A stretch of 16,061 nt of DNA, from the NCBI GenBank assembly GCA_017651785.1, contig JAGCCD010000119.1, forward strand, positions 1-16,061, written 5' to 3'. Below, piece by piece: positions 1-16,061 of the stretch. The position numbers were made by a program, and so were the translations under genes. Numbering within the stretch: position 1 is the stretch's first letter; every line of letters begins with the position of its first letter. The stretch comes from Bacteroidales bacterium (GTDB lineage: Bacteria > Bacteroidota > Bacteroidia > Bacteroidales > UBA932). The notes under the pieces were generated by a model. That model ran no database searches, was not told where the DNA came from, and saw nothing but the letters and a program-made list of their open reading frames with translations.

Positions 1-1397
1 ACAAAGCCCTCAAGCGCGCCCACATCCTGGAGGGACTGCTCAAGGCCATTGACGTAATTGACGAGATTGTACACATCATCCGTCACTCCAAGAGCGTAGA
101 CGACGCAAAGGCAGAACTAATCGCTACCTTCGGCTTCACTGAAATCCAGGCCGCGGCAATCGTAGAAATGCGCCTCCGTCAGCTCACCGGACTCGAGAAA
201 GACAAGCTCCAGGCCGAGTACGACGATCTTGAGAAGTTCATCGAGCGCTGCCGTATCATCCTCGGCAGCGAGGCGGAGCAGCTCGCCATAGTAAAGTCCG
301 AGTCCGCAGAAATGAAGGCCAAATACGGAGATCCCCGCCGCACCGAGATAACCCTCGCCGCAGACGAATTCAACCCCGAGGACATCTATCCCGACGAGGA
401 TGTGGTAATCACCATCTCCCATATGGGTTACATCAAGCGTACCCCTCTGGCAGAGTTCCGCACTCAGAGCCGCGGCGGCGTGGGCAAGAAAGCCAGCGCC
501 ACCAGGGACGAGGACTTCATAGAGCACATCTTCGTCGCCAATATGCACTCCGTGATGCTCTTCTTCACAGACCAGGGCATCCGCTACTGCAAGAAGGTCT
601 ATGAGCTTCCCGAGGGCACCCGCACCTCCAAGGGCCGCGCCGTGCAGAACCTCCTCGCCATAGAGGCGACGGACAAGATCCGCACCTACCTTAACATCCC
701 CCTGCCCAAGAACGCAGATATGGATGCAGAGCGCTACGTCATACTGGTCACCAAGAAGGGCGTCATAAAGAAGACCGACCTGGCAGACTACACCAACTCC
801 CGCAGCTTCAACAAGGGCATCCGCGCCATCAACATCCGCGAAGGGGACGAACTGCTGGACGCCCTCCTCACAGACGGCAAGCACGAAATAATGATCGCCG
901 CCCGCAAGGGCCGCTGCTGCCGCTTCGACGAGTCCGAGCTCCGCAGCCTCGGCCGCAACAGTTCCGGCGTTCGCGGTATCAACATAGACGAGGACGACGA
1001 GGTAATCGGAGCCCTCTCCGCCAACCCTTCAGATCCCGACTACGCTTCTCGTACCGTACTGGTAGTGAGCGAGAACGGCTTCGGCAAGCGCACAGATACG
1101 GAGGAGTACCGCAAGACCTCGCGCGGCGCCAAGGGCGTCCGTACCATCAACATCACGGACAAAACTGGCCCGCTTGTTGCAATAAAGTCCGTCACAGAAG
1201 AGAACGACCTTATGATAATCAACCGTTCCGGCCTCACTATCAGAATGCCGGTAACAGACATCAGGGTCGCAGGAAGAGCCACGCAAGGCGTCAAGCTCAT
1301 CAACATCCGCGAGGGAGACTCCATAGCAGCGGTCTGCCCGGTACCCAAAGAAGAGGAGCAGGATCTCCCCGAATCAGAAGAACAGACTCAGGAATAA
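1..1397 (+). CDS. gyrA: DNA gyrase subunit A, C-terminal part (5' end outside window)
   Basis: This is the 3' part of the gyrase A subunit, which with GyrB introduces negative supercoils using ATP. The reading frame is open from base 3, so the gene starts upstream of the window. The first residues belong to the end of the breakage-reunion domain and its long helical tower, ending in MRLRQLTGLE at about 168-197. The rest is the DNA-wrapping C-terminal beta-pinwheel. A GyrA-box-like QSRGGVG lies at 465-485, and later blades repeat a pattern of G-(V/I)-(R/K)-x-I-N-I (for example GVRGINI, GVRTINI and GVKLINI). The GyrA box argues for GyrA over ParC. The protein ends in a Glu-rich acidic tail, as many GyrA proteins do. 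The TPR gene starts 19 nt after the stop, so the two are probably co-transcribed. Identification is firm; only the missing N-terminal half (with the active-site Tyr) cannot be examined. Confidence 0.96.
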   Translation, partial: KALKRAHILEGLLKAIDVIDEIVHIIRHSKSVDDAKAELIATFGFTEIQAAAIVEMRLRQLTGLEKDKLQAEYDDLEKFIERCRIILGSEAEQLAIVKSESAEMKAKYGDPRRTEITLAADEFNPEDIYPDEDVVITISHMGYIKRTPLAEFRTQSRGGVGKKASATRDEDFIEHIFVANMHSVMLFFTDQGIRYCKKVYELPEGTRTSKGRAVQNLLAIEATDKIRTYLNIPLPKNADMDAERYVILVTKKGVIKKTDLADYTNSRSFNKGIRAINIREGDELLDALLTDGKHEIMIAARKGRCCRFDESELRSLGRNSSGVRGINIDEDDEVIGALSANPSDPDYASRTVLVVSENGFGKRTDTEEYRKTSRGAKGVRTINITDKTGPLVAIKSVTEENDLMIINRSGLTIRMPVTDIRVAGRATQGVKLINIREGDSIAAVCPVPKEEEQDLPESEEQTQE

Positions 1398-1416
1398 CCA
1401 ATTATCACTCATAAAA

Positions 1417-2724
1417 ATGAAACGAATACTTATGGTACTGGCCCTTGCGGCCGCATTCACCGCAGCAAACGCACAGGTTAAGACTGTCCCCGCTGCCACC
1501 TCCGCTCTTGAAAAGGCAAAGGCGGATGTAGAGAATCCCAAGAAGGCCGGAAAGTTCGCCACATGGCTCAAGTACGGACAGGCCCTTGTGACCGCTTACG
1601 ACGCTCCCGCCGGCAACGGTTGGGTGGGCGCATCGCGTCAGGACATCCAGATGATCTCCAATAACGAGAAGCCCATCAGCTCAGAGACCGTCACCCTTGC
1701 CGGCGAGCAGTGGCAGAAGGATGTCTATCCTACCCGCAACTACTACTACAACTCCATCGGCCAGCTCGGTGTCATAGAGGTCACCCAGCCCATCAGCCCC
1801 ACCGCCCTCAACGATGCAATCTCCGCATTCGCCAAGGCGGCTGAGCTGGATGTCAAGAACTGCAAGGCAAAGGACATCAAGGCCGGTCTGCAGTCAGTTC
1901 AGAGCAAGCTCGTAGAGCGCGCATACGCCATGTACACCCTTGGCAACTATGCACAGTCATCCAAAGACTTCGAGGCTGCCGCACTCGCAGCAGGCACCGC
2001 CCCTCTGAGCCAGATAGACACCAATTCCATCTACAACGCAGGTTTCACCTCCTGGATCTCCGGAGATACCTCACGTGCCAAGAAGTTCTTCACGGACTGC
2101 CTCAATTACGGCTACTATTCCGAGGACGGTGAAGTCTACGCCAAGCTCGCAGACATCGCAGGCAAGGAAGGCGACGCAGATAAGGGCCGCGACTACCTTG
2201 AGGAAGGCTTCCAGAAGTTCCCTCAGAGCCAGAGCATCCTCGTCGGTCTCATCAACTACTACCTCACCAACAACGGCAGCACCGACCGTCTGTTCGAGCT
2301 CCTCGGCCTTGCAAAGAAGAACGAGCCCAACAACCCTTCACTCTATTATGTTGAGGGTAACATCCGCAAGCAGCTCGGCATGTACGACGAGGCAATCCAG
2401 GCCTACCGTGCCTGCGCAGGCATAGATCCCAACTATGCATACGGCTACATCGGAGAGGGCATCCTCTACTACGAACTCGCTCTCAAATATCAGGAAGAGG
2501 CCCAGAACGAGATGAACGACGCCAAGTATATGGCTCTGGACGCCAAGTTCCAGGAGGCCCTCAAGAACTGCGTCCCTCCTTTCGAGAAGGCCATTGAGAT
2601 GGTGAGCGGTACAGACAAGGTGGGTGTGGCAGAGTACCTCAAGAACGCCTGCTTCCGCTTCCGCAATGAGGAAGAGTACGCAGAGAAGTACAAGAAGTAC
2701 GAGGCAATCGTAGCAGGCAAGTAA
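1417..2724 (+). CDS. Secreted tetratricopeptide-repeat protein
   Basis: This 435-residue protein begins with a clear type I signal peptide: MKR, a hydrophobic stretch, then an AANAQ cleavage site near residue 20. It should therefore be periplasmic. Residues about 45-130 form an uncharacterised region rich in Tyr and Asn. From about 165 onward the sequence is helical TPR-like repeats, with recognisable units near 167-194, 203-230, 237-268 and 309-340 (the last has GMYDEAIQAY followed by DPNYA). TPR arrays bind protein partners, and no catalytic motif is visible. The gene follows gyrA by 19 nt with no promoter or terminator in between, so it probably relies on gyrA transcription. A TPR gene after gyrA is, from memory, a recurring arrangement in Bacteroidales. 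The start is the ATG giving the signal peptide; the A-rich upstream sequence (cataaaa) suits the phylum. The specific role is unknown. Confidence 0.88.
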   Translation: MKRILMVLALAAAFTAANAQVKTVPAATSALEKAKADVENPKKAGKFATWLKYGQALVTAYDAPAGNGWVGASRQDIQMISNNEKPISSETVTLAGEQWQKDVYPTRNYYYNSIGQLGVIEVTQPISPTALNDAISAFAKAAELDVKNCKAKDIKAGLQSVQSKLVERAYAMYTLGNYAQSSKDFEAAALAAGTAPLSQIDTNSIYNAGFTSWISGDTSRAKKFFTDCLNYGYYSEDGEVYAKLADIAGKEGDADKGRDYLEEGFQKFPQSQSILVGLINYYLTNNGSTDRLFELLGLAKKNEPNNPSLYYVEGNIRKQLGMYDEAIQAYRACAGIDPNYAYGYIGEGILYYELALKYQEEAQNEMNDAKYMALDAKFQEALKNCVPPFEKAIEMVSGTDKVGVAEYLKNACFRFRNEEEYAEKYKKYEAIVAGK

Positions 2725-3783
2725 TCAGCGTATACCTGTGGCGGCCTGAACCCTGGCGAGGGTCGCGCACATGTTGTCATAATCAGATGGATTGAGCCAT
2801 TCGCTCCGGCGGGTGGCCCAATCTTTTATTCTGACGGTGGCGTAACTGGGCGTGAGCTTGCCCGGAAGCGTGCACCAGAGCCAGTCCAGCTGTGGCTCAA
2901 GCATCTTTTTCTCTCCGCTTATATGGTCTATTACGAACCTGAGCGTAACAGCAAGCTCGAGCCTGGTGTTTTGTGCGCTCATATTGGAAACGGCGTTGCC
3001 CATTGAATAGATGACGGGAACGCCATTTATGTGAGTAGTGTCCTGAACCACGTGAGGATGAGCTCCCACAATGGCGCTGCAACCCTGCGCGGCCAGCCAG
3101 CGGGCCCATTCTTCCTGCTTTGCGCAGTGCCTCAGCTCATACTCTACGCCCCAGTGGGGAAGTGCCACTATGAAGTCGGCACCTGCGGATTTGCCGCTCT
3201 GTATGGCTGCGGAAACGTTTTCCTTGTTCATTCTCAGCACCTCCGGCGCCTTGCCGTCCGGTCCCACATTGGTGCCGTAGGTAAAGTTGACAAGCGCTAT
3301 CCTGATGCCGTGCTTATGGATGATTAGGGGTTCTTTCCCTATCCCGGTGTAACTGATGCCGTGTGTCTGAGCCATTGCATCGTAGACCTTCACGGTGCGC
3401 AGAAGGCCCTTTGATCCACGGTCCAGGATGTGGTTGTTGGCGGTAAGGAATACGTCTGCGCCGCAGGATGCCACGTATTCTGCATAATAGTCCGGAGTGG
3501 AAAAGGCGGGATAGCCGCTGTATGGCTCGCCGCCGAGCGAGAACTCCATATTGGCTATGCAGAAATCGGCCTGCTGCATATATGGCTCGATTTGTGAGAG
3601 GAAGTACGTATGGTCGTGCTGCAACTGGCGGGTGTGCATCATAACGTCGCCTATGATGTACAGGCTGACGGTATCTGAAGGGCAGTAGAGTGGCTTTGCC
3701 TTGGGAATGGGGTAGAGGAACTGAGCCTGCGATTCCAGGCACGTCAGAAGCAGGATTGCGACTATGATTGACCTTAAACGCAC
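2725..3783 (-). CDS. CapA family protein (PGA_cap, metallophosphatase-like fold), secreted
   Basis: This protein of about 352 residues matches the CapA/PgsA family (PGA_cap), first known from poly-gamma-glutamate capsule synthesis and related to calcineurin-like metallophosphatases. Visible family motifs, numbered from the upstream TTG at 3789, are GDVMMH (47-52), NMEF (80-83), ANNHILDRG (117-125), PHWGVEY (211-217), GAHPHVVQ (242-249) and SMGN (262-265). The putative metal-binding Asp, Asn and His residues are all kept, so it is probably active. A hydrophobic N-terminus ending SQAQ indicates export. GTG at 3783 is chosen as the start. The TTG at 3789 would lie inside the likely -7 box of this gene's promoter. 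No capsule genes lie nearby, so a capsule role is not supported; many Bacteroidota carry orphan CapA proteins of unknown substrate. Its stop codon abuts the stop of the convergent TPR gene with no gap. Confidence 0.9.
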   Translation of the reverse strand: MRLRSIIVAILLLTCLESQAQFLYPIPKAKPLYCPSDTVSLYIIGDVMMHTRQLQHDHTYFLSQIEPYMQQADFCIANMEFSLGGEPYSGYPAFSTPDYYAEYVASCGADVFLTANNHILDRGSKGLLRTVKVYDAMAQTHGISYTGIGKEPLIIHKHGIRIALVNFTYGTNVGPDGKAPEVLRMNKENVSAAIQSGKSAGADFIVALPHWGVEYELRHCAKQEEWARWLAAQGCSAIVGAHPHVVQDTTHINGVPVIYSMGNAVSNMSAQNTRLELAVTLRFVIDHISGEKKMLEPQLDWLWCTLPGKLTPSYATVRIKDWATRRSEWLNPSDYDNMCATLARVQAATGIR

Positions 3784-3786
3784 GTG

Positions 3787-3794
3787 CAAATATA
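3787..3794 (-). promoter_or_regulatory. Putative -7 promoter element for the CapA gene
   Basis: Read on the minus strand, the sequence is TATATTTG, a full match to the Bacteroidota -7 consensus TAnnTTTG. It ends only 3 nt before the GTG start at 3783, so the transcript would be leaderless or nearly so. No clear -33 TTG is seen at the expected distance, which lowers confidence. Confidence 0.4.
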
Positions 3795-3805
3795 ATAAAA
3801 TTGAT

Positions 3806-3813
3806 TAACTTTG
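3806..3813 (+). promoter_or_regulatory. Putative -7 promoter element for the SPOR lipoprotein operon
   Basis: TAACTTTG is a full match to the Bacteroidota -7 consensus TAnnTTTG and is followed by C, as is common. It ends 6 nt before the ATG at 3820. It would drive the five-gene unit ending at 10286. It lies only 11 bp from the divergent -7 box of the CapA gene, so the two promoters overlap back to back. No convincing -33 TTG is present about 20 nt upstream. Confidence 0.5.
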
Positions 3814-3819
3814 CGACTT

Positions 3820-4356
3820 ATGAAGAGAATAACGCCACTGCTCGTCCTCTTGCTGCTCGCCTGCCTTGTCAGCGGGTGCGATTTCTTCCGCACGCTTGCC
3901 GGACGGCCCACCTCGCGTGAGATTTCCCGCCGCCGGGCGGTCATCGAGCGCGCAGAGGCCCGCCGCATCGCGCTGGCAGACTCGCTTGAGCAGGCAAGAA
4001 AGGACTCCATTGCCCTTGTAAGAAAGGCCGAGGCCGACTCGCTTCATGCCATAGACACTCTCACCCTCATCGGCAAGTATCACAAAGCGTCCGCCTACAG
4101 GAACATACCCACGTCGCGGCTTCGCAGCAGGTATGCCGTAGTAGTCGGAGTCTTTTCCAACGACGCAAATGCCCAGCGCATGCTCTCCAAGTATGCAAAA
4201 GAGGGGATAGACGGCTATGTGCTCCAGTACCGCAGCTCCCTCAGGGCTGCCGTCGTTTCACCCTGCAATAAGGTCGCAGACGCCCTCGCGGCTTACCGTA
4301 AGGTGCGAGGGCTGCCGTTCTCGTCCTCCCAGACCTGGATAATCGTAAACGAATAA
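3820..4356 (+). CDS. SPOR-domain lipoprotein
   Basis: This 178-residue protein starts with MKR, a Leu-rich stretch and the lipobox LVSGC, with Cys20 as the lipidated residue; it is followed by DFF. Residues about 32-80 are rich in Arg, Glu and Ala with repeated ADSL-type segments and look like an alpha-helical or coiled-coil stalk. Residues about 104-176 form a SPOR domain (RYAVVVGVFS, then a helix, then AAVVSP and a final TWIIV strand). SPOR domains bind denuded glycan strands of peptidoglycan, often at division sites, so this is probably a membrane-anchored periplasmic protein contacting cell wall. No acidic run follows the lipidated Cys, so surface export is not suggested. ATG 3820 is preferred over the in-frame TTG at 3811, which lies inside the likely -7 box. 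The next gene begins 4 nt after the stop. Confidence 0.9.
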   Translation: MKRITPLLVLLLLACLVSGCDFFRTLAGRPTSREISRRRAVIERAEARRIALADSLEQARKDSIALVRKAEADSLHAIDTLTLIGKYHKASAYRNIPTSRLRSRYAVVVGVFSNDANAQRMLSKYAKEGIDGYVLQYRSSLRAAVVSPCNKVADALAAYRKVRGLPFSSSQTWIIVNE

Positions 4357-4360
4357 GGGA

Positions 4361-5680
4361 ATGAAGAGGATTATTCTTGCAGCAATATGCATACTGGCGT
4401 CCGTGCTTGCGCAGGCCCAGTTCCGCACCTCTTACTCTGACCTTTTAGACAGCGAGACCGTTCGCGCAATGAAGGAAGACGTGGGTTTCCTCGCCTCCGC
4501 CGCCCTTGAGGGCCGCGCCGCCGGTTCCGAGGGAGAAGCAGAGGCCGCCAGATATATGTCCGCCCGCTTCCTTGAGTGCGGCGCAGACCTCCTTTATCCG
4601 GAAGAGGGAGACCTCTTCGGAATCAAGCGTCCCTCGGGCGATACGCTCCGCTCCCACAACGTCGCCGCCTTCATAACGGGTTTTGACAAGAAGCTGAAAG
4701 ACAACTACATAGTGGTTTGCGCCAGGCTTGACAACCTGGGCACCTTGACGCTGAACAAAGACGGAGAAACCGTCACAAAGACATACTACGGCGCCAACGG
4801 CAACGCCTCCGGACTTGCGATGCTCATCCAGCTTGCGCAGCGCCTTGGCACAAACAGCGTGCTGCTGGGCCGTTCCGTCATCCTGCTTGCCTCCGGTGCC
4901 TCGCTGCCGGACAATGCGGGCACGTGGTACTTTCTCAACCGCTCCTTCGGCGGCAAGATAGACGCGGCGGTAGAGCTCAATATGCTCGGCACGGGATCAA
5001 CCGGATTCTACGCCTACACGGCATCCAATGCAGACCTCAACCGCACCATTACGGCCCTTTCCGGCACCCTTCAGCCCGTTCAGCCCAGAATCGTCGCCGC
5101 AGAGCCCTGCGCCTCAGACCACCGCATGTTCTACGACAGCAAGATCCCCTCGGTCATGTTCACCTCCGGAATGTATCCTGAGTACAACAGCGAGCGGGAC
5201 ACTCCCTCCATTCTTGAGTATGACTGGATGGAGCGCGAACTCGAATACATCTATAACTGCATAGTGGAGCTCTCCAACGCGCAGGCGCCGGATTTCGACC
5301 CTTCCCAGGAAGCGAAAGACCAGTATAAGTCGGAAAAGCCCGGCGTGGTGCCATATTACGACTGCGACGTACGGCCCTCTTTCCTCGGCAGCTCAGACCC
5401 TACCGTATTCCTGCAGAAGTGGGTATACACCTATCTGCGCTATCCCCGCGCTGCGGTGGAGCAGGGCATACAGGGCCGCGTGCTGGTAGATTTCGTGATA
5501 GACGAAAGGGGAAAGGTCACCGACGTAAAGGCGGTCAAGTCATCCCATCCTCTGCTTGAGGAGGAGGCGTTGCGCGTAATCAAAGCGTCACCTGACTGGA
5601 AACCCGGCCGCATGGGCGGCAAGAAGGTGAAGTCGCAGATGTCGCTCAACGTAGAGTTCCGCCTGGAAAAGAAGAAATAG
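4361..5680 (+). CDS. Secreted M28-like pseudopeptidase fused to a TonB C-terminal domain
   Basis: This 439-residue protein has a signal peptide (MKR, hydrophobic stretch, AQAQ near residue 20). It has an M28 peptidase-like domain (about 35-305) and a TonB C-terminal domain (about 345-435; [14 protein letters not shown], then FVIDERGKV). The M28 fold aligns without gaps around the active-site motifs, but key residues differ. AHYDHLG reads ARLDNLG (121-127), so the first His ligand is Arg. GADDNASG reads GANGNASG (144-151), so the bridging Asp is Gly. GAEE reads GASL (179-182), so both Glu are lost. NLDM reads ELNM (205-208), so the Asp is Asn. Only the SDH motif His (254) and Asp124 remain. 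A catalytic peptidase is therefore unlikely; a binding or scaffold role is inferred. With a cleaved signal peptide there is no inner-membrane anchor, so it is not a standard energy-transducing TonB. It sits between a SPOR lipoprotein (4 nt upstream) and leuS (10 nt downstream). Confidence 0.88.
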
Positions 5681-5690
5681 AACAAAACAT

Positions 5691-8420
5691 ATGGAATACG
5701 ATTTCAAGGCAATAGAAAGCAAGTGGCAGGAGTACTGGGCCGCAAACAAGACCTTCAAGGCATCGCAGGACACAGGCAAGCCCAAGTACTACGTTCTGGA
5801 TATGTTCCCGTATCCTTCAGGAGCGGGACTGCATGTGGGACATCCCCTGGGATACATAGCAAGCGACATCTACGCCCGCTACAAGAGGCTCAAAGGCTTC
5901 AACGTCCTTCATCCCATGGGGTACGACGCCTTCGGCCTCCCCGCAGAGCAGTACGCCATCCAGACAGGCCAGCACCCCGGCAAGACCACCGAGGACAACA
6001 TTGCCCGTTATCGCAGCCAGATGGACCGCATAGGCTTCTCGTACGACTGGGACCGCGAGGTCCGCACCTGCGACCCCGCCTTTTATAAATGGACCCAGTG
6101 GGCCTTCCTCAAGATGTTCGACAGCTGGTACGATCCGGATGCAAACAAAGCCCGTCCCGTTTCCGAGCTTGTAGACCGTTTCTGCACCACCGGTTATGAT
6201 GGAATTACTCCAGAGGCCTGGAAGGCTGCCACAGAGAAAGAGAAGTCCGATATCCTGATGCGCTATCGTATTGCTTATCAGGGAGAAACCTCAGTCAACT
6301 GGTGCGAGGGTTTAGGTACCGTCCTGGCCAACGACGAGGTTAAGGACGGCCTCTCGGTGCGCGGCGGCTTCCCCGTAGAGCAGAAAAAGATGACGCAGTG
6401 GCAGCTCCGCGTGTCGGCCTATGCCCAGCGCCTGCTGGACGGCCTTGACAAGCTGGACTGGAGCGACTCCTTAAAGGAGATGCAGCGCTACTGGATAGGC
6501 AAGTCTGAGGGCACTGAGATGGTGTTCAACACCGAGTGCGACGGCCGCCAGCTGCCCGTCACCATTTTCACCACCCGCGTAGACACCATATACGGCGTAA
6601 CCTTCATGGTGCTTGCTCCGGAGAGCGAGCTAGTTCCTGAGCTCACTTCAGCAGACCGCAAGGAGGCCGTAGAAGAATACCTCAAAGCCGTAAAGAAGAA
6701 AACCGAGCGCGAGCGCATGGCAGAAACCAAGAGCGTAACAGGCGTATTCTCAGGCGCTTATGGTATAAATCCGCTCACTGGCGAAAGAATCCCCATCTGG
6801 ATTGCCGAATACGTGCTTGCCGGCTACGGAACCGGAGCCATTATGGCCGTTCCTGCGCACGACAGCCGCGACTACGCCTTCGCCCGCAAGTTCAATCTCC
6901 CCATCGTTCCCATCATAGAGGGATGCGACGTGAGCGAGGAATCCTTCGACGCCAAAGAGGGCCGCTTGTGCAACTCCGGCTTCCTTAACGGAATGAACGT
7001 CAAAGAGGCCATAGAGGCGGCGAAAGACTATGTAGAAGCCCACGGCTTGGGCAGGCGCAAGACAAACTACCGTCTGAGGGACGCCATCTTCTCCCGTCAG
7101 CGCTACTGGGGAGAGCCGTTCCCCATCTACTATAAAGACGGCATCCCTTGCCCCGTCCCCGAGAGCGAGCTTCCGCTGCTCCTTCCGCAGATAGATTCCT
7201 ACAAGCCCACGGGCGAGGCCCCTCTTGCCCGCGCAAAGAACTGGACCTGGAACGGTTATCCCCTGGAGACGTCCACAATGCCCGGTTTCGCCGGCTCAAG
7301 CGCTTATTACCTGCGTTATATGGATCCCCACAACGACAATGCGCTTGTCTCTCACGAGGCAAACGACTACTGGCGCTCCGTAGACCTGTATGTAGGAGGC
7401 ACTGAGCACGCTACCGGTCACCTCATCTACTCTCGTTTCTGGAACAAGTTCCTCTGGGACCTGGGCTATGTGTGCGAGGACGAGCCTTTCCGCAAGCTCG
7501 TGAACCAGGGTATGATACAGGGCCGCTCCAACTTCGTATACCGTGTTGTGGGCACCAACCGTTTCGTGTCCCTCGGCCTCAAAGACAAGTACGACACCAC
7601 AGAGATTCACGTAGACGTGAACATCGTCCACGGTGACAAGCTTGACCTGGAAGCCTTCCGCGCCTGGCGTCCCGAATTCGCCGACGCCGAGTTCGAGCTG
7701 GAGAACGGCGAATACATCTGCGGCTGGGCCATAGAGAAGATGAGCAAGTCCATGTTCAACGTGGTGAATCCGGACCTCATTTGCGACACTTACGGCGCAG
7801 ACACCCTCAGGCTCTATGAAATGTTCCTCGGTCCCGTAGAGCAGAGCAAGCCCTGGGATACCAAGGGAATTGACGGCGTGAACAGGTTCCTCCGCAAGTT
7901 CTGGCGCCTCTATTACAACAAGCTTGACTGGCTGGTGGTGGACGAAGAGCCCACCAAAGATGAACTCAAGGCCCTGCATAAGCTCATAGGCAAGGAGCAG
8001 GAAGACATAGAGAACTTCTCTTTCAACACCACGGTGAGCGCATTCATGATCGCCGTGAGCGACCTTTCCGCCCTGGGATGCAACAAAAAGGCTATCCTGG
8101 AGCCTCTGGTCGTGCTCCTCAGCCCCTTCGCGCCCCACATCGCAGAAGAACTGTGGCAGAAGCTCGGTCACGATACATCGGTGGCCTATGCTTCGTTCCC
8201 CGAGTTCGTTCCGGCCTATGCGGCAGAAGACTCCGTCACCTATCCCGTTCAGTTCAACGGCAAGATGCGTTTCACCATCGACCTGCCCCGCAGCGCTTCT
8301 CCCGCAGAGGTTGAGGCTGCTGTGCGAAGCGCCGAGTCCACTCCCAAGTACGTGGGAGAGCAGTCGATAGTTAAGGTGATTGTGGTTCCTGGCAGGATTG
8401 TAAACGTTGTTGTGAAATGA
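5691..8420 (+). CDS. leuS: Leucyl-tRNA synthetase
   Basis: This cytoplasmic class I aminoacyl-tRNA synthetase charges tRNA-Leu with leucine. At 909 residues it is longer than the roughly 860-residue E. coli enzyme, as expected for this phylum. The HIGH-like ATP-binding motif is HVGH (48-51) inside [21 protein letters not shown] is intact at 683-687. The CP1 editing domain is present. Its Thr-rich motif reads TTRVDT (294-299), where many enzymes have TTRPDT, and the editing Asp that holds the leucyl amino group is Asp391 in MAVPAHD. So proofreading is probably active. An insert around residues 150-195, ahead of the [10 protein letters not shown] segment, resembles that of other Bacteroidota enzymes. 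The start ATG is 10 nt after the preceding stop, and its TGA overlaps the next gene's ATG (ATGA at 8417-8420), indicating translational coupling. Nothing suggests a T-box or other leader control. Confidence 0.98.
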
Positions 8421-9352
8421 GCCCCAAGACAAGAAAGATTCTGAGAACCGTGTGGGACTATCTGGCCCTCACTTTTGCGTGTTTCATATTCGCCATATCC
8501 TGGGAGTGCTTCATGATTCCCAACGGAATGTCCGCCGGAGGAATGATGGGCCTGTGCACCGTCGTGCAGTACGCTACCGGGGGCCTCATTCCCGCCCAGT
8601 ATTCGTACATAGTAATAAACGTAGTGCTCATCCTCATCGCCGTGTTGGCAATGGGAATAGGATTCGGCTTCAAGACGCTGTACTGCATAGCAATGTCTAC
8701 AATCGCAATGCAGATCATGTCCGGATTCACCGTTATGCATTCCTTGCCCGGAGAGTTCTTCTACGTGCGTGAGGCGCTGCTCATCCCGGCTATCGCCGGT
8801 GTGCTTGAGGCGCTGGGAATAGGTCTCGTAATCAGATACGGCGGCAGCACCGGAGGTACGGATATCATTGCCATAATGATCAACAAGTACTGGCCCGTGT
8901 CGCTCAGCACCGCTTTCTTCGTACTGGACTTCGTAGTCGTGTCCCTGCTGCTTTTTCTGCCGGACAAGACCTTTGCCGACGCCTGCTACGGCCTGGTGGA
9001 AATCATCGTCTTCATGATAATGATAGACCCGGTGGTGGGCGGCAAGAAGTCGTCGTATCAGCTTATCGTCTTCAGTAACAAATACGAGCTCATAGCAGAC
9101 CACATCGCCAACGTTATGGAGAGGGGAGTCACCGTCCTGCACGCTCAGGGCTGGTACACCAAACAGGATAAGAACGTCCTTCTGATCCTCATAAGCCAGA
9201 GGGAGTTCCCTGCGCTTTCCAAGGTAATTAAAGAAATAGATCCCAAAGCATTCATGTCCGTTTCTCCTACCCACAATGTCTACGGAGAGGGCTTCGAGGA
9301 AATCAAGACCGGTATAACCATCAATAAGAAAAAGAATGGCGGCAATGACTAA
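8417..9352 (+). CDS. YitT family membrane protein with DUF2179 domain (first copy)
   Basis: This 311-residue inner-membrane protein belongs to the YitT family. About five to six hydrophobic segments lie between residues 13 and 205. The family signature GGSTGGTD is at 142-149, preceded by a re-entrant-looking Gly-rich helix. The C-terminal part (about 210-295) is the soluble DUF2179 domain, with RGVTVL, GWYTKQ and DPKAFMSV typical of it. The family's function is not established; transport has been proposed from topology. It starts in the ATGA overlap with the leuS stop, so its translation is probably coupled to leuS, and it overlaps the next gene by 17 nt. The neighbouring copy is a clear paralogue: both carry GGSTGGTD at the same residue numbers and the same DUF2179 motifs. 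A tandem pair suggests a heteromeric complex, which is inference. Confidence 0.9.
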
Positions 9353-10286
9353 AAAATCCGTATTCACTTTCGTTAAGGAATACGCCATTATGACCGTGGG
9401 CATCCTGCTCTACGTTATGGGCTGGGTGCTGTTCCTCATTCCAAACAACCTCGTGGGCGGCGGAGTATCCGGTATCTCTTCCATCGTGCAGTATGCAACC
9501 AACGGCGTAATAAAGCTTGGTACGGTGTACTTTGTGGTAAACGCCGTCCTGCTCGTCATCGGAATGCTCACCCTGGGCAAGGCCTTCGGAGGCAAGACCA
9601 TATACGCCGTCATCCTCGCGTCCGTCGGCCTGAATGCGCTGCAGGGACTCATTCCGGCAGACATTACTCAGATTCTCGCTATCCAGAACGGCAAGCTCAT
9701 GAGTACGATAATGGGCGGTATCATGGCAGGCGCAGGCATAGGCATGACAATGTCGCAGGGCGGCAGCACCGGAGGAACTGACATCATAGCCCTGGTGGTC
9801 AACAAGTACCGCAATGTTTCCCCCGGCCGTATGATCCTGTGGATGGACGTCGTAATCATACTCTCGTCCCTTCTGGTGCCTTCCTACACCGCATCCGGAG
9901 ACCTTCTTCCCTGGCCGGAGAAAATCACCACGGTGGTGTACGGTTTCATACTGGTTGTAATCTGCAGCTCCGTCCTTGACCTGTACCTTTCCGGCTGCAG
10001 GCAGTCCGTCCAGCTCTTCATCCTTTCTCCCAAGTACCAGGAGATTGCGGACCTTATAACCAACGAGTTGCATCGCGGCGTAACGGTACTTGACGGAAAG
10101 GGCTGGTACACCAAGCAGAACACGGAGGTGCTTATGGTCATCACCAGGCGCACCGACGTCTCCATCCTCCTCCGTATGATCAAATCCGTAGATCCCAACG
10201 CCTTCCTGTCCGTCACATCGGTTACCGGCGTATACGGAAAAGGCTTCGACCAGATAAAGGAACGTGTAAAAAAGATTGACGCATAA
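9336..10286 (+). CDS. YitT family membrane protein with DUF2179 domain (second copy)
   Basis: This 316-residue paralogue of the preceding gene has the same layout: several membrane segments (about 13-215), GGSTGGTD at 142-149, then a DUF2179 domain (about 222-305) with RGVTVLDGKGWYTKQ and DPNAFLSV. It differs in the loop at about 181-196, which is longer (SYTASGDLLPWPEK). The ATG at 9336 gives a 17-nt overlap with the first copy; an in-frame ATG at 9345 (MTKKS) would give an 8-nt overlap and is also plausible. The overlap points to coupled translation and fixed stoichiometry. It is the last gene of the five-gene unit. No strong hairpin terminator follows directly, although a C5T6 run sits at 10296-10306. 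Function is unknown, as for the family. Confidence 0.9.
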   Translation: MAAMTKKSVFTFVKEYAIMTVGILLYVMGWVLFLIPNNLVGGGVSGISSIVQYATNGVIKLGTVYFVVNAVLLVIGMLTLGKAFGGKTIYAVILASVGLNALQGLIPADITQILAIQNGKLMSTIMGGIMAGAGIGMTMSQGGSTGGTDIIALVVNKYRNVSPGRMILWMDVVIILSSLLVPSYTASGDLLPWPEKITTVVYGFILVVICSSVLDLYLSGCRQSVQLFILSPKYQEIADLITNELHRGVTVLDGKGWYTKQNTEVLMVITRRTDVSILLRMIKSVDPNAFLSVTSVTGVYGKGFDQIKERVKKIDA

Positions 10287-10293
10287 TAATCGT

Positions 10294-10341
10294 TACCCCC
10301 TTTTTTACCCCATCAAATACCCCCTGACGTACCCCCTGAAA
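10294..10341. repeat. Four direct repeats of TACCCC at exact 12-bp spacing
   Basis: TACCCC begins at 10294, 10306, 10318 and 10330, giving four 12-bp units: TACCCCCTTTTT, TACCCCATCAAA, TACCCCCTGACG and TACCCCCTGAAA. The array fills the gap between the second YitT gene and the AraC-type regulator and ends 15 bp before that gene's likely -7 box. Regular spacing of a short conserved core upstream of a regulator promoter looks like a cooperative protein-binding array, possibly for the regulator itself. The pattern is seen directly; the function is inferred. Confidence 0.75.
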
Positions 10342-10344
10342 ATC

Positions 10345-10369
10345 GGGGCCAAACATTATTTTTGGCTCC
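10345..10369. promoter_or_regulatory. Inverted repeat overlapping the regulator gene promoter
   Basis: GGGGCCAAA (10345-10353) can pair with TTTGGCTCC (10361-10369) across a 7-nt loop, with one G-T mismatch. The right arm covers most of the likely -7 box TATTTTTG. It could be an operator dyad or an RNA hairpin near the 5' end. No T-run follows, so it is not a normal terminator. Confidence 0.45.
10357..10364 (+). promoter_or_regulatory. Putative -7 promoter element for the AraC-type regulator
   Basis: TATTTTTG matches the Bacteroidota -7 consensus TAnnTTTG in full and ends 8 nt before the ATG at 10373. No TTG lies at the usual -33 distance; that space is taken by the last TACCCC repeat. An activator bound to the repeats could stand in for the missing -33, which is inference. 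Confidence 0.45.
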
Positions 10370-10372
10370 GGT

Positions 10373-11335
10373 ATGAAAGTAAAAATATCAGTTCATTTTA
10401 TTGTAAGGGCGTCTTCCGCACTGGTCTTTGCCCTTCTGGTCTTATGTGACTTCCTTACAGGCAGGTCAGTCTGTCCGCAGGAGCTTTGCGCAGACATCTG
10501 GTGGGCCCTGCTGGTGCTCATCGTCTATCCTTCTTCGCACGAGAGCGTATACCCCTGCATACCGCTCACGGCTGTAGCTGCGGTTGCGGCCATATCGCTC
10601 AAATTAATGGATTTACCTCTGGCGGTGCAGGTTATTGCCGGCTCTGCGCTGGCCCTTGTTTCTGTGATACGCAGAAGTGTGATGAAGTTCTCGGACATTG
10701 AGCCTCTCTTCCACGTGAGCGGCGTATGGTACTGGATAGAAGACTATACCTGGCAGATTCACGTATGCATCTTCATCATAGCGGGCATTGCCGCTGCGGC
10801 ATCGGAGAAATCGGCCGTAATCTCCTGGCTTCTGGCTCTTTCGCTGGCTGCACTTTACTATGTTGAATACAAGCGCGTATATACGCGGAAGACAATGTTC
10901 TTGAGCGCTCGCAAGGAGGAGGACATACGTAAGGCACAGAAAGGCTCCGCTTTCAAACCTCCAATACGGTTCGTAGATTCCGACAGCAGGTCTGCGGCCC
11001 TTTTCAATGACGTAGTGAGCATTATGGAAAACCGAAAGCCCTGGCTTCAGGACGACTTTGGCGTGGACGATCTGGCACGTATGACGCACACCAACCGTAT
11101 GTACCTTTCCAAGGCAGTGAATTTTCACTCGGGGCGCAATTTTAATCAGCTCGTAAACTACTATCGCGTGCGCTACGCCAAAGAGCTCATCAGAAAAGAT
11201 CCAAGCCTCAAGATGGTGCAGGTTGCGCAAATGAGCGGCTTCCACACGGTGGTATCGTTCAATATGGCATTTAAACTCAACGAACGGATGACGCCCACAG
11301 AGTATGCCCAGTCGCTTAAGAGGTTGCAACCTTAA
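10373..11335 (+). CDS. Membrane-anchored AraC-family transcriptional regulator
   Basis: This 320-residue protein has an N-terminal membrane part and a C-terminal DNA-binding part. Hydrophobic segments lie near residues 10-28, 43-54, 63-78, 82-98, 129-144 and 147-164, so about five or six helices. A basic linker follows (165-200). The AraC/XylS double helix-turn-helix occupies about 222-318: a first HTH around VDDLARMTHTNRMYLSKAV and a second around MVQVAQMSGFHTVVSFNMAF, ending with the typical MTPTEYAQS. It probably senses a membrane or envelope signal and controls transcription from the membrane. It has its own promoter region with a repeat array and dyad, suggesting autoregulation. It is followed by a terminator and then the M64 lipoprotein gene in the same direction, a candidate target. 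No ligand-binding cupin or two-component domain is present. Confidence 0.9.
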   Translation: MKVKISVHFIVRASSALVFALLVLCDFLTGRSVCPQELCADIWWALLVLIVYPSSHESVYPCIPLTAVAAVAAISLKLMDLPLAVQVIAGSALALVSVIRRSVMKFSDIEPLFHVSGVWYWIEDYTWQIHVCIFIIAGIAAAASEKSAVISWLLALSLAALYYVEYKRVYTRKTMFLSARKEEDIRKAQKGSAFKPPIRFVDSDSRSAALFNDVVSIMENRKPWLQDDFGVDDLARMTHTNRMYLSKAVNFHSGRNFNQLVNYYRVRYAKELIRKDPSLKMVQVAQMSGFHTVVSFNMAFKLNERMTPTEYAQSLKRLQP

Positions 11336-11356
11336 AAAGGCAATTGTTGCTTTTTT
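11334..11356 (+). terminator. Intrinsic terminator after the AraC-type regulator
   Basis: AAAAAGGCAA (11334-11343) pairs with TTGCTTTTTT (11347-11356) across a 3-nt TTG loop, giving a 10-bp stem with one G-T pair; its right arm is itself the T-run. The hairpin begins within the stop codon of the regulator. Its right arm includes the TTG proposed as the -33 of the next gene's promoter. Confidence 0.7.
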
Positions 11357-11377
11357 GGCTGTAAAATCCTATTTTTA
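11347..11377 (+). promoter_or_regulatory. Putative promoter of the M64 lipoprotein gene
   Basis: TTG (11347-11349), a 20-nt spacer and TATTTTTA (11370-11377) fit the Bacteroidota -33/-7 arrangement, with one mismatch in the -7 box (final A for G). The ATG at 11401 lies 23 nt downstream, leaving a short A-rich leader. This is the only promoter in the window where a -33 element can be placed. Confidence 0.5.
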
Positions 11378-11400
11378 CGCAAATAATTCACTAAACAGCC

Positions 11401-14400
11401 ATGAAAGCCATCCGTCTTTTCGCCGTTCTGGGCAGCCTGCTCCTTGCTGCGTCAGCGTGTCAGGAAGAACCGTCATTAACTGTCTCCAGTTCTTCCAGCA
11501 TCAATCTGGGCGCCAATGGATCAAGCGATATCGTTTCCTTTACCTCCAACCGGGACTGGACCGCTACAGCATCAGAATCCTGGGTCAGCGTGTATCCGTC
11601 CTCCGGATCCGCATCTGAAAGCGCAATTACCGTTACGGTGAGCGCTCAGGCAAACACCACCTACGAGGACCGCAGCGCCACGGTTACAATTACGGCAGAC
11701 GGTCTCACTCAGACCATTCAGGTGAGGCAAGCTGCCAATGAGGCGCTTATCGTCGCAAACAAGTCATTCGAGCTTGCATCCGAGGCCACTTCATTCGAGG
11801 TGGAGGTTCAGACCAACGTGGATTACAACGTGTCAATATCGGACGGCTGGATCCGTCAGATAAGCTCAAAAGGACTCAAGATGGACAAGCTGGTTTTCAG
11901 TGTGTCGGAGAACGACTCTTATGACGCACGCACGGCTAAAGTAACCATCAAGCCTGTCTCCGGTGACGCAGAAGAGCAGGTCGTGAGCGTGAGACAGGCA
12001 CAGAAAGACGCCGTCCTTGTGGAGGATACGGTGTTCAACATATCCTGCGGCGGTGGAGACATAGAGGTGGCTGTATCCGCTAACGTTGAATTCGAGGTAA
12101 GCAGCGCCGCAGACTGGATCCACTACATCGAAACGCGCTCCCTCTCCAATTACGTGGTAAGGCTCCGCGTAGACGCCAACCCTTACACGGACGACCGCGA
12201 GGGCACGGTAACCATATCCCAGAAAGGCAGCTCTGCCAAGTATACCATAACCGTCAAGCAGGCGGGGAAGGACGTCCTTACGGTTGGCGAAGTAAAAGAA
12301 GTGGCGGAAGAAGGCGGAATTGTTGAGGTGGACATCCAGTATAACATAGACTACACCGTAGAAGTGGACTATTATGCACAGGACTGGATCACCTACATAG
12401 AAACCAAGGCTCCCACCAGCGGTAAGCTCCGTTTCATGGTTACCACCAATGACAAAGACGACATCCGTACGGGAAGTGTAACCATCCGTCCTTCGGGCTC
12501 CCTTGACCCCGTTACCTTGACCTTCCGCCAGCAATCCAAACTGCGCCGCCTGCTGACGGAGTTTTTCGGTGCCATGGACGGCCCCAACTGGGCTGTCAAC
12601 GATAATTGGGGAACAGATGAAAGTATATTCCGTTGGTGGGGTATCATTGGGAACAGTAACACCGGCATTACCGGGATGCAGTTCCGGGATATGGGCCTGA
12701 AAGGGTCGATCCCTGCTTGCATCGGCGATTTTCCCGATTTGGATTATTTCTTCATTTCCAATGAACCCGGTATTGTGGGCGCTTTGCCGGAATCTTTCAG
12801 TAAACTGGTCAAGATGAGGGAGTTGGTCATGAATAGAACATCCATGACTTCGCTCCCGGATGTTTTTGCGGATATGCCAAATCTGAAAAGCATATCTATA
12901 GCCGGTAATACTGAAATGACAGGGCCTCTGCCGGAGAGTATCGGCCGTTCCGATAATCTGGGCTATATAGGCTTGCACTACAATGCTTTCACTGGAACTG
13001 TCCCTAAATCCTATGTTAGGTGGGTAGATATCCTGAACGTCTATGACAACCGCCTTACCGGCAAGCTGTCAGATATATTCACAGAGCGGGAGGATATCCG
13101 CTCTTTCGTCAGAAATTCCAACCTTTGGCAGCAGAATGGCTATGGATTCGACATTTCCGACATAGAAATCCCCGGTTTCTACGGTTGGTTCGACGGCCAG
13201 ATCTCAGGAACGGACGGAAGCCTGTTCACTTTCGACGACGTTGTGGGCAAAAGCAAATATACTGTCTATGTAATCTGGGCTTCCTGGTGTCCGTTCTCCA
13301 GAACCCTGATGCCTGCGCTCAAAGAATATTATGAGAATTATCGCCAGGACGGACTGGAGATAATTGCCACATCCCAGGTCGGCGGAGTTGACGAATACGG
13401 CGTTGGACATATGATAAGCGACCGCGACGCATATATGGCGGAGGTGGTCTCAAAGGGATATGACCAGTGGTATAATTTCTATTGGCCGGATTATGGCAAC
13501 TCTTACCTGACGACTACTCCGAATGCCGAGGTTTATGACCAGAACGGAAACATTCTGTTCAGCAGTTTCGAAAATTATCCGGATCCCGTAAGGAACCGTT
13601 ACGGCAAGGTGGCTTCCACGCAGCTGATACCGTTCCTGGAAACACTGTTCGGCCCCGCTTCTCCTGCCGATCCATACACATCTTCCGATTATTCCAAAGA
13701 CGGCCAGGTGCTTACCTTGCAGAAAGCATCAGTGGGCAAGGGCATCAACATTGTCTTTATGGGAGACGCCTATACCGATAAAGACATGGGCAGTGGCGGC
13801 GTGTATGAAACCGTGATGAAGCAGGCAATGGAGGAATTCTTTGCCGTGGAGCCTTATAAGACCTATCGCAACAGGTTCAACGTGTATGCCGTGAAGGTCG
13901 TTTCAAAGAATGGCCGCATAGGGTCAGGATATACAACCGCGCTCGGTACCCGCTTTGGCAGCTGTACATATGTAGAAGGCGACGATGATAAGTGCTTCGA
14001 GTACGCAATGAAGGTTCCCGGCATCAACAGCAGGGAGAACCTGCTTGTAAGCGTGCTCGTAAACAGCAACCACAATGCAGGAACGGCCTTCCTGTTCAGG
14101 AACAACCAGTCTGCCGTTGCCAGAGTTCCTTCCTTCGGAAACGATCCCGATGCCTTCGGCTCCACCCTGCAGCACGAGGCCGGCGGCCATGGCTTCGCCT
14201 TCCTTGCCGACGAGTATGCTACCAACAGCGGCACTCCGCCCCAGTCATTCATAGACGAGTACAACGAAGTCTATGAAAAATACGGCTGGTACTCCAATGT
14301 AGACTTTACCGACGATCCTTCCAAGGTGCGATGGAGCGCATTCCTGAGTGACAGCCGCTACAGCTCCCTGGTCGGCCTCTACGAGGGCGCAGCACTGTAT

Positions 14401-14643
14401 ACCCAGGGCGCATGGCGTCCCACGGCAAACAGCATTATGAGGGATAATTACGGCGGCTTCAACGCTCCGTCACGATGGGCTATATACAAGCAGATCATGA
14501 AGCGCAGCGGAGAGGATTACAGCTGGGAGAAATTCCTCGAGTACGATGCGGTTAACCGCGGTACAGGTGACAAAGTACCGGAAGTGCCGCTCCGCACTCC
14601 GGCCCGGAGTCTTGAACCCGGCACACCTCCTGTAATCAAGTAA
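11401..14643 (+). CDS. Multidomain BACON / LRR / thioredoxin-like / M64 peptidase lipoprotein
   Basis: This 1080-residue lipoprotein has a lipobox ending ASAC (Cys20) followed by QEE; acidic residues there resemble the signal for surface export in Bacteroidota. Four BACON modules follow (about 27-110, 114-199, 203-287, 291-377), each ending in V/F-(R/K)-Q; these beta-sandwich domains are thought to bind glycans or mucin. Next come plant-type LRRs (about 430-556; LKGSIP, VGALP, TGPLP and TGTVP repeats) and a TlpA-like thioredoxin domain (about 590-750) with WCPFS (Cys630, Ser633; second Cys missing) and a likely cis-Pro707. The C-terminus (about 770-1060) is an M64 (IgA peptidase family) domain: NIVFMGDAYT, then HEAGGHGFAFLADEY (925-939). 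The His spacing is HExxxH rather than HExxH. A role in degrading host or dietary glycoprotein is inferred. Bases about 12600-13560 (LRR and thioredoxin) are visibly lower in GC than the flanks. Family calls are strong; substrate is unknown. Confidence 0.9.
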   Translation: MKAIRLFAVLGSLLLAASACQEEPSLTVSSSSSINLGANGSSDIVSFTSNRDWTATASESWVSVYPSSGSASESAITVTVSAQANTTYEDRSATVTITADGLTQTIQVRQAANEALIVANKSFELASEATSFEVEVQTNVDYNVSISDGWIRQISSKGLKMDKLVFSVSENDSYDARTAKVTIKPVSGDAEEQVVSVRQAQKDAVLVEDTVFNISCGGGDIEVAVSANVEFEVSSAADWIHYIETRSLSNYVVRLRVDANPYTDDREGTVTISQKGSSAKYTITVKQAGKDVLTVGEVKEVAEEGGIVEVDIQYNIDYTVEVDYYAQDWITYIETKAPTSGKLRFMVTTNDKDDIRTGSVTIRPSGSLDPVTLTFRQQSKLRRLLTEFFGAMDGPNWAVNDNWGTDESIFRWWGIIGNSNTGITGMQFRDMGLKGSIPACIGDFPDLDYFFISNEPGIVGALPESFSKLVKMRELVMNRTSMTSLPDVFADMPNLKSISIAGNTEMTGPLPESIGRSDNLGYIGLHYNAFTGTVPKSYVRWVDILNVYDNRLTGKLSDIFTEREDIRSFVRNSNLWQQNGYGFDISDIEIPGFYGWFDGQISGTDGSLFTFDDVVGKSKYTVYVIWASWCPFSRTLMPALKEYYENYRQDGLEIIATSQVGGVDEYGVGHMISDRDAYMAEVVSKGYDQWYNFYWPDYGNSYLTTTPNAEVYDQNGNILFSSFENYPDPVRNRYGKVASTQLIPFLETLFGPASPADPYTSSDYSKDGQVLTLQKASVGKGINIVFMGDAYTDKDMGSGGVYETVMKQAMEEFFAVEPYKTYRNRFNVYAVKVVSKNGRIGSGYTTALGTRFGSCTYVEGDDDKCFEYAMKVPGINSRENLLVSVLVNSNHNAGTAFLFRNNQSAVARVPSFGNDPDAFGSTLQHEAGGHGFAFLADEYATNSGTPPQSFIDEYNEVYEKYGWYSNVDFTDDPSKVRWSAFLSDSRYSSLVGLYEGAALYTQGAWRPTANSIMRDNYGGFNAPSRWAIYKQIMKRSGEDYSWEKFLEYDAVNRGTGDKVPEVPLRTPARSLEPGTPPVIK

Positions 14644-14644
14644 A

Positions 14645-14684
14645 AACAGCAACCGCCTTCGGAATTTCCGAAGGCGGTTCTGTT
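14645..14684. terminator. Bidirectional terminator between the M64 gene and the pseudouridine synthase gene
   Basis: AACCGCCTTCGGAA (14651-14664) is exactly complementary to TTCCGAAGGCGGTT (14666-14679). The stem extends with AACAG (14645-14649) against CTGTT (14680-14684), with one bulged C. On the minus strand the hairpin is followed by GTTTTTA, a good T-run for the convergent gene; on plus the T-run is weak. The minus-strand stop codon lies at the hairpin edge. Confidence 0.85.
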
Positions 14685-15384
14685 ATTCTACGGGAGGCCA
14701 GGACTGCGGGGGAGGGGCGACTATGTGCACCTCGGTGTGCTTGACGGGATGCTCGAACCGTATCTCGTGCGCGTGCAGGCAGATTCCGCCGTCCGGATTG
14801 GAGCGGGGCGCGCCGTACTTGAGGTCTCCCTTGATGGGGCAGCCGATATTGCCAAGCTGGCAGCGTATCTGGTGATGGCGGCCGGTGAGAAGCTCTACCT
14901 CTACAAGGTGATAGCGGTCAGAGCTGCTCAGGGAACGGTAGTTGAGTTTTGCCAGCTTTGCGCCCGGACGCTCGGTGGTTACATATGATTTGTTTTTTGG
15001 CTCGTTCTTAATGAGCCAGTTTTCCAGATGCCCCTGCGGTGGAATGGGCTTCTCGCAGCACAGGGCCCAGTATGTCTTGTGAAGGCCTGCTTCCTTGAGC
15101 ATTACGCCCAGGCGGCCCAGCGCCTTGCTTGTCTTTGCAAGCACGCAGATGCCGCTTACCGGCCTGTCCAGACGGTGGGGGATGCCAAGGAACACCTGCC
15201 CGGGCTTGTTGTCACGCACTGCTATGAAGGCCTTGTATGCATCGGCCAGGCACTCGTCTCCGGTCTTGTCTCCCTGTGTTATCTCACCGCTCTTCTTGTT
15301 TACGATGAGCAGGTGATTGTCTTCGTAGAGGATGCGGGATTGCAGGTCCGCGTATTCCTCCGCGCTCAGTTCTCTGTAAGCCAT
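14683..15384 (-). CDS. RluA-family RNA pseudouridine synthase
   Basis: This 233-residue enzyme isomerises uridine to pseudouridine in rRNA or tRNA in the cytoplasm. The catalytic motif HRLDRPVSG is at residues 70-78, with Asp73 as the expected nucleophile. The supporting motifs LLIVNKKSG (25-33) and LLTGRHHQIRCQL (near the C-terminus) are present. There is no N-terminal S4 domain, so it is a compact member, closer to RluA, TruC or YciL-type single-domain enzymes than to RluC or RluD. The exact target base cannot be told. The ATG at 15384 (MAYRELSAEEY) is chosen; the longer in-frame extension back to 15648 runs through the intergenic region and into dnaK and has no family similarity. A -7 box and a palindrome lie just upstream. 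It converges on the M64 gene and shares its terminator. Confidence 0.93.
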   Translation of the reverse strand: MAYRELSAEEYADLQSRILYEDNHLLIVNKKSGEITQGDKTGDECLADAYKAFIAVRDNKPGQVFLGIPHRLDRPVSGICVLAKTSKALGRLGVMLKEAGLHKTYWALCCEKPIPPQGHLENWLIKNEPKNKSYVTTERPGAKLAKLNYRSLSSSDRYHLVEVELLTGRHHQIRCQLGNIGCPIKGDLKYGAPRSNPDGGICLHAHEIRFEHPVKHTEVHIVAPPPQSWPPVE

Positions 15385-15388
15385 GGCG

Positions 15389-15396
15389 CAAAGATA
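15389..15396 (-). promoter_or_regulatory. Putative -7 promoter element for the pseudouridine synthase gene
   Basis: On the minus strand TATCTTTG is a full match to TAnnTTTG, followed by C, and ends 4 nt before the ATG at 15384, which implies a leaderless or nearly leaderless transcript. About 19 nt upstream the sequence is TTTT rather than TTG, so the -33 match is weak. Confidence 0.5.
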
Positions 15397-15397
15397 A

Positions 15398-15410: not shown

Positions 15411-15475
15411 GAAAACTGCGGGTGGCAAAGGATTTGATGAAATGTATGCGGACTCGCAGAGAGCCCGGAAAGTAA

Positions 15476-16061
<586 letters not shown>

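Follow-up and report, generated by a model that had tools for sequence, protein, structure and literature searches.

A TonB_C-fused M28 peptidase domain without its active site, probably maintained as a pseudoenzyme in a family of Bacteroidales

The subject of this report is a gene of a Bacteroidales bacterium that encodes an M28 peptidase fold joined to a TonB C-terminal domain (TonB_C). It lies in a stretch of 16,061 nucleotides (contig JAGCCD010000119.1, positions 1 to 16,061, forward strand, of assembly GCA_017651785.1), the whole of which is called here the window; the assembly is a metagenome-assembled genome (MAG), 66.7% complete and in 270 contigs. A first, sequence-only reading had the coordinates and the two domains right. 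In Pfam, Peptidase_M28 (PF04389) matched residues 100-292 with 55.5 bits, for a cut-off of 21.3, and TonB_C (PF03544) matched residues 358-435 with 73.3 bits, for a cut-off of 24.6. By its profile match and its M28 fold, the window protein belongs to the M28 family by descent. The features of the gene are as follows.

4361..5680, + strand: M28-TonB_C fusion coding sequence, one open reading frame of 439 amino acids (aa)
4361..4420, + strand: putative signal peptide, residues 1-20 (hydrophobic N-terminus, AQA-Q), inferred by reading the sequence
4451..5290, + strand: M28-fold domain without active site, residues 31-310
4724..4726, + strand: Arg122, in place of a metal ligand His (His97 of the aminopeptidase AAP, see below)
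4799..4801, + strand: Gly147, in place of the bridging metal ligand Asp (AAP Asp117)
4901..4906, + strand: Ser181-Leu182, in place of the catalytic Glu and a metal ligand Glu (AAP Glu151-Glu152)
4979..4981, + strand: Asn207, in place of a metal ligand Asp (AAP Asp179)
5120..5122, + strand: His254 of the SDH motif (AAP His230), conserved, not a metal ligand (alignment to 3b3t, counted back from chain residue 245)
5186..5188, + strand: Asn276, in place of the last metal ligand His (AAP His256)
5432..5665, + strand: TonB_C domain, residues 358-435 (Pfam; also TonB chains 5lw8, 6sly and 2k9k by sequence)

Residues A19 and Q20, at the end of the putative signal peptide, were invariant in 23/23 rows of the alignment.

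Active-site residues were mapped by sequence alignment onto the Aeromonas/Vibrio aminopeptidase (AAP, 3b3t), the numbering of which was anchored by the mutant names found in Protein Data Bank (PDB) titles (D118N, E151H, M180A, S228A). AAP His97, Asp117, Glu151, Glu152 and Asp179 aligned with Arg122, Gly147, Ser181, Leu182 and Asn207 of the window protein, meaning that the substitutions named in the sequence-only reading are present, and at active-site positions. AAP Ser228-Asp229-His230 aligned with Ser252-Asp253-His254, and AAP Asp99 with Asp124. The AAP alignment ends at residue 245, and the last metal ligand, which we take to be AAP His256, was placed through the alignment with the AM-1 aminopeptidase instead: WYHTPNDT of this enzyme faces EYNSERDT of the window protein, so that the His of the YHT motif falls on Asn276. 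This His was kept in 18/18 outgroup M28 proteins and, by definition of that group, in the 12/12 intact orthologues described below.

Four of five ligands had been counted as lost. These four losses are real, but since Asn276 holds the place of the last ligand, the fifth is lost as well. His254, proposed as one surviving ligand, was ruled out as such, because its SDH motif aligns with AAP Ser228-Asp229-His230 and AAP His230 is not a metal ligand. The other residue said to remain, Asp124, is indeed present, but its counterpart AAP Asp99 is not known to be a metal ligand either. By these alignments, the window protein keeps 0/5 of the ligands of an M28 enzyme (H, D, E, D, H, replaced by R122, G147, L182, N207 and N276), and its catalytic Glu is absent as well (S181).

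We then looked at how widely these substitutions are shared. The protein search gave 3364 homologues among 7997 scored, and residues were counted on the 120 listed, the window's own included. R122, D124 and S181 were found in all 120, and H254 in 119; position 147 was G in 114 and S in 6, position 182 was never Glu, and position 207 was D in 50, N in 45 and E in 25. A set of 96 sequences was assembled for the window's genus, and reduced to 84 non-redundant ones at less than 90% identity. The genus label of the search tool stands on the window and L083-L097 only, and L003-L082, the best 80 of 292 confirmed loci, were assigned to the genus by similarity, 16 of these 80 being placed in the same tree clade. 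The genus is probably Candidatus Cryptobacteroides (Bacteroidales at NCBI), as L018 and L023, in the same clade, are so named.

Within the 96 own-genus sequences, all five ligands were lost in 19, four in 75 and three in 2; full loss is not the rule, largely as many sequences have retained Asp at position 207. R122 was present in 96, S181 in 95 and G147 in 94. Similar figures were obtained with the 84 non-redundant sequences (R122 and N125 in 84, N146 and S181 in 83, G147 in 82), in which Asp207 was retained in 66, position 182 took 13 residue types, and position 276 was N in 60, D in 13, G in 9, Q in 1 and S in 1. Among the His and Cys residues of the M28 domain, His254 alone was conserved in 90% or more of them, and no new conserved His or Cys was seen in the M28 part of these 84 sequences. 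D124, D253 and D280 were invariant or nearly so in the genus, and equally kept in intact orthologues. The framework that is shared with the forms having an intact active site includes, among others, G51-R52, S98, N100, D124, G144-A145, A149, G151, R171, D253 and D280.

The search tools group the genome of the window in a family named here f1, and 67 places were found in other genera of f1. Sixty were read with their flanks; left out were the partial matches G115, G084:C188, G057, G066 and G094, and two at contig starts, G084:C154 (also degenerate) and G106. All 60 orthologues had open frames longer than 400 aa. At positions 122, 124, 147, 181, 182, 207 and 276, 12 of the 60 read HDDEEDH, and are called intact (six from genus g27, three from g20, and one each from g29, g32 and g34). 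The other 48 were degenerate in varied ways, for instance NDDKERR, HDAMEDR, RDCGENR, HDAGEDQ, HDDSEDN or QDSGNNG, and g20, g27 and g32 each hold both intact and degenerate forms. Out of six functional residues, the five ligands and the catalytic Glu, two were missing in 6 of the 48 degenerate sequences, three in 17, four in 15, five in 6 and all six in 4. The catalytic Glu was absent in 46/48. Residues found in these degenerate sequences were A, S, N, K, C or G at 147, G, K, S, M, Q or A at 181, and R, Q, N, G, Y, F or P at 276. The word degenerate thus spans partial to total loss, and does not by itself establish inactivity. The M28 proteins of the order that served as outgroup (frames of 491-557 aa, matched over the M28 part only) were intact in 18/18 cases.

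Intact and degenerate forms share their neighbours at the locus, which in the window are the following.

3811..4356, + strand: SPOR-domain protein with a lipobox-like LVSGC read by eye, upstream neighbour (Pfam)
5691..8420, + strand: leucyl-tRNA synthetase (leuS, LeuRS), downstream neighbour

LeuRS was directly downstream in 76/76 own-genus and 48/59 other-genus loci with enough sequence. The eleven exceptions are eight g38 loci, L129 and L165, where it lies 1.2 and 2.9 kb away, and L138, where none was found in the flank. The SPOR gene was directly upstream in 74/79 own-genus loci with enough sequence, and detected upstream in 48/58 other-genus loci. At E≤1e-40, a single place per genome was found in 74/75 matched genomes, G084 having a full match and a partial match on another contig. 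A mix-up of paralogues was ruled out by this single place per genome together with the conserved neighbours. By their position, most of the intact and degenerate forms are therefore orthologous. The sequence-only reading had taken orthologues with intact ligands as the sign of a local loss; such orthologues do exist (12/60), but the loss is genus-wide, and occurred more than once in the family, as described next.

A maximum-likelihood tree was built with 79 fusion sequences and 7 of the 18 outgroup sequences, active-site columns being excluded; trees were obtained by a 'quick' search, with support from the Shimodaira-Hasegawa-like approximate likelihood ratio test (SH-aLRT) only, and two outgroup sequences were long-branched. 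Intact sequences fell in several separate places. The fewest changes required by parsimony were 7, and 10 losses were counted on the best tree if loss is taken as irreversible. A single loss bringing all 67 degenerate sequences together was rejected, at a cost of 273 log-likelihood units (p = 1.3e-45, approximately unbiased, or AU, test). One loss for the degenerate sequences of ten genera was also rejected (p = 5.4e-4), as was one loss for these ten genera and g26 (p = 2.5e-6), or for the ten genera, g26 and the degenerate g20 sequences (p = 4.6e-66). Three finer splits gave higher AU p values: 0.087 for the nesting of L126 inside the degenerate g32/g31/g21/g19 group, 0.10 for one or two losses of the site in g20, and 0.351 for one or two losses in g27. 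Because of these three splits, a cautious count stays below 10. According to the trees, the active site has been lost more than once in the family.

Selection was measured on 52 pairs of sequences (aa identity 80-98.5%, synonymous divergence dS below 1.5), using the pairwise Nei-Gojobori ratio of nonsynonymous to synonymous divergence (dN/dS). All pairs were degenerate-degenerate, no intact-intact pair having qualified, and the medians describe degenerate forms alone. Median dN/dS was 0.088 for the M28 part (52 usable pairs), 0.070 for TonB_C (51), 0.176 for the linker (46) and 0.308 for the signal part (48). When each sequence was used once (22 disjoint pairs), the medians were 0.075 for M28 (range 0.032-0.227) and 0.047 for TonB_C. 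The M28 part is under purifying selection.

The fate of individual positions was examined next. Fifty-seven M28 sites are invariant in the 12 intact sequences, and 10 of these were lost in the window's own genus (47, 85, 122, 125, 146, 147, 181, 182, 272 and 276). Eight of the 10 lie at a catalytic position or at most 4 residues from one, and of these eight, five owe their invariance to the way the intact set was defined, while 125, 146 and 272 do not. At positions 122, 125, 146, 147, 181 and 272, a new residue had become fixed in at least 98% of the 84 non-redundant own-genus sequences, and six former active-site positions re-fixed in this way are not what plain drift would be expected to leave. 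As to charge, Lys or Arg was found at one or more of positions 122, 147, 181, 182, 207, 208 and 276 in 32/48 degenerate other-genus sequences and in 0/12 intact ones; random sets of seven sites gave a mean of 7.0/48, and reached 32 in 0.18% of 20,000 draws. This statistic ignores relatedness, and position 208 was added after g38 had been seen. Groups without Lys or Arg at the seven positions include g26, g33, g35 and L136. The gain of Lys or Arg would fit a replacement of the metal charge, and is offered as a lead only.

The fusion, or a piece of it, was found in 24/25 genomes of the window's genus (E<1e-80), the genome without it being G006 (80% complete), and in 75/119 sampled f1 genomes, from 16/25 genera (E≤1e-40). 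In eleven genomes without a fusion match (one per fusion-less genus, with G006 and G076 added), matches covered either M28 or TonB_C alone. Among the matches listed for 295 genomes of the order, with five candidates scored per genome, those of four genomes covered both domains, all from f1, and the others stopped at or before model position 341 of 432; within this sample, the fusion looks confined to f1.

Homology with enzymes, loss of the catalytic residues and retention by selection are the marks of a pseudoenzyme, and all three were found here. The earlier view that this is a maintained pseudoenzyme rather than decay therefore holds at the level of sequence, given the conserved substitutions, the frames of more than 400 aa and the low dN/dS. 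As a whole explanation, we consider it fairly probable that the fusion is a selected, non-catalytic binding protein of the periplasm, docked through its TonB_C domain. The protein would be exported to the periplasm, secretion being probable. The two zinc ions and the catalytic base of its M28 domain would be gone, and peptide cleavage with them, whereas fold and framework residues would have been kept by selection for binding in or beside the former active site. The most likely candidates for what is bound are partner proteins, peptides and free amino acid ends. Docking would be the task of the TonB_C domain, and its partner would most likely be a TonB-dependent transporter of the outer membrane, held by its TonB box, or else another TonB_C domain; this is the weakest step of the scheme. 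The ancestral fusion would already have carried this docking domain and have been an active, aminopeptidase-like enzyme, if the intact forms are active as their residues suggest, and selection would have kept binding while catalysis was dropped more than once.

Several points weigh against a selected binding protein. No ligand or partner was identified, and the neighbours of the fusion (SPOR protein, leuS, gcvT and two YitT-type genes) point to no transporter. The structural model of the window protein is of middling confidence (predicted local distance difference test, pLDDT, 77.7), and does not fix the shape of the pocket, since residues 181-186 and 255-257 are below 50. A model of the intact orthologue L139 has a pLDDT of 89.0, but it was run with another alignment, and the two values are not weighed against each other here. 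The dN/dS values are pairwise, and 49/52 pairs come from the own-genus set. Many losses in other genera are partial, with Glu182 kept in 39/48 and Asp207 in 30/48 degenerate sequences, some of which might bind metal. Finally, the fusion is not essential to the family, because G006 and 9/25 sampled genera are without a detected one.

A more detailed proposal combines selected binding without catalysis, a repeated change from enzyme to pseudoenzyme at one locus (7 or 10 times), and, in the lineage of the window, a two-zinc site rebuilt as a fixed new R122/N125/N146/G147/S181/Y272 pocket, with Arg standing for the metal charge, which next to a TonB-dependent transporter would bind a peptide or carboxylate end. 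All of this holding together is possible but doubtful, and we put it forward tentatively.

The M28 domain might alternatively be an inert carrier, its fold kept for the folding or export of TonB_C, with catalysis unneeded and no selected function in the pocket. A released site would behave much as positions 147, 181 and 276 do in the 48 degenerate sequences, where they were lost to many residues, and as the freely varying position 182 does in the own genus. The re-fixation of positions 122, 125, 146, 147, 181 and 272 (98-100% of the 84 non-redundant sequences) is not expected from such a carrier, nor is an M28 dN/dS close to that of TonB_C and below that of the linker, which makes this alternative unlikely. 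A still smaller chance is given to an enzyme whose reaction has changed, by one-metal or metal-free chemistry in the old pocket. R122, N125, N146, G147, S181 and Y272 show the degree of conservation expected of an active site, and Asp207 is kept in 66/84 own-genus sequences; however, the window protein has no ligand position unchanged, His254 is the sole conserved His or Cys of the domain, and other degenerate lineages carry quite different residues at the same sites. Very improbable is a zinc site rebuilt from nearby replacement ligands, with aminopeptidase activity persisting: the acidic D124, D253 and D280 are conserved enough, but are no replacements, because intact orthologues keep them equally, and without a new conserved His or Cys a rebuilt site was ruled out. 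An artefact of a bad MAG or a wrong frame, for which the incompleteness of the assembly might speak, can be dismissed, as can a local loss, since the substitutions are genus-wide (R122 and S181 in 120/120 listed homologues, of which one is the window's own; in the own genus, R122 in 96/96, S181 in 95/96 and G147 in 94/96).

The neighbourhood gave no clue to function, being made mostly of housekeeping genes. LeuRS, YitT and GcvT identities were confirmed by Pfam in the window or in L139. Two tandem genes for YitT-family membrane proteins lie at 8417-10286 of the window, with overlaps between the two and with the end of leuS, and YitT matches were found near leuS in most other-genus loci. In the eight g38 loci (L146, L148, L151, L152, L169, L172, L173 and L174), YitT follows the fusion directly, on the opposite strand, with LeuRS beyond; the conserved block appears to be inverted in all eight. 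GcvT was found upstream, after the SPOR gene, in 57/58 other-genus loci versus 0/80 own-genus loci. Some loci with intact forms (L139, L128 and L160) have two extra small genes in the SPOR/gcvT region; in L139 one has a Glyoxalase domain and the other is without Pfam match. Further along the window, 11401-14643 encodes a 1080-aa chimera with four BACON stretches, leucine-rich repeats (LRR), a peptidase M64 domain and a thioredoxin/AhpC-like stretch; for the LRR and the thioredoxin-like stretch, the matches are below Pfam cut-offs.

Other M28 proteins were met in the same family. A second M28 line of the window's genus, without TonB_C (L223-L234, frames of 310-417 aa), was degenerate in 12/12 cases and forms one clade, with motifs such as HDSKEDN, NDSKRDN and HDSREDN, in which the catalytic Glu is replaced by Lys, Arg or His, the bridging Asp by Ser or Ala, and the last His by Asn. 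Five M28 sequences came from f1 genera or genomes without the fusion: L235 (HDDNKDH) and L238 (HDDGKDH) are degenerate, and L236, L237 and L239 are intact. An M28 protein of 477-498 aa of the window's genus (L219-L222) was intact in 4/4.

Many pseudoenzymes are known only after the change, while here full and degenerate forms stand at the same locus in related genera, with recurrent loss. The locus thus offers natural replicates in which to ask why an enzyme turns into a binding protein, and which function both forms share. It also means that a Peptidase_M28 match in this gut and rumen family should not be taken for activity, as 48/60 other-genus and 96/96 own-genus sequences have lost the active site in part or whole.

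A search in part of the open-licence literature brought up no description of an M28 pseudoenzyme from bacteria or of an M28-TonB fusion. A term search in the available text of a review from 2024 on inactive homologues of metallopeptidases (PMC11266112) gave no hit for 'M28', 'transferrin receptor', 'nicastrin' or 'nicalin'. Compared with the M28 aminopeptidases (AAP 1amp, SGAP 1cp7, AM-1 2ek8, BSAP 6hc6), the window protein is without ligands and catalytic Glu, and has a TonB_C domain. Transferrin receptor 1 (TfR1), nicalin and nicastrin are eukaryotic M28-fold proteins without peptidase activity, and the first two were also among the matches in the comparison that gave the AAP alignment; they carry other domains, whereas the window protein is bacterial, carries TonB_C, and has orthologues with a full active site at the same locus. 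Also among the closest systems are Bacteroidetes glutaminyl cyclases and zinc exopeptidases (4fuu/7d1d BT_2548, 3tc8, and 3gux by sequence), titled zinc exopeptidase, leucine aminopeptidase or glutaminyl cyclase, of about 290-314 residues and crystallised without TonB_C. With the TonB energy transducers (5lw8, 6sly, 2k9k), finally, the window protein has its C-terminal domain in common. The usual TonB layout is an inner-membrane anchor, coupled to ExbB/ExbD, followed by a long periplasmic linker; here, the N-terminus is a hydrophobic stretch of about 20 residues that ends in AQAQ and was read as a signal peptide, and the M28 fold stands at the place of the linker.
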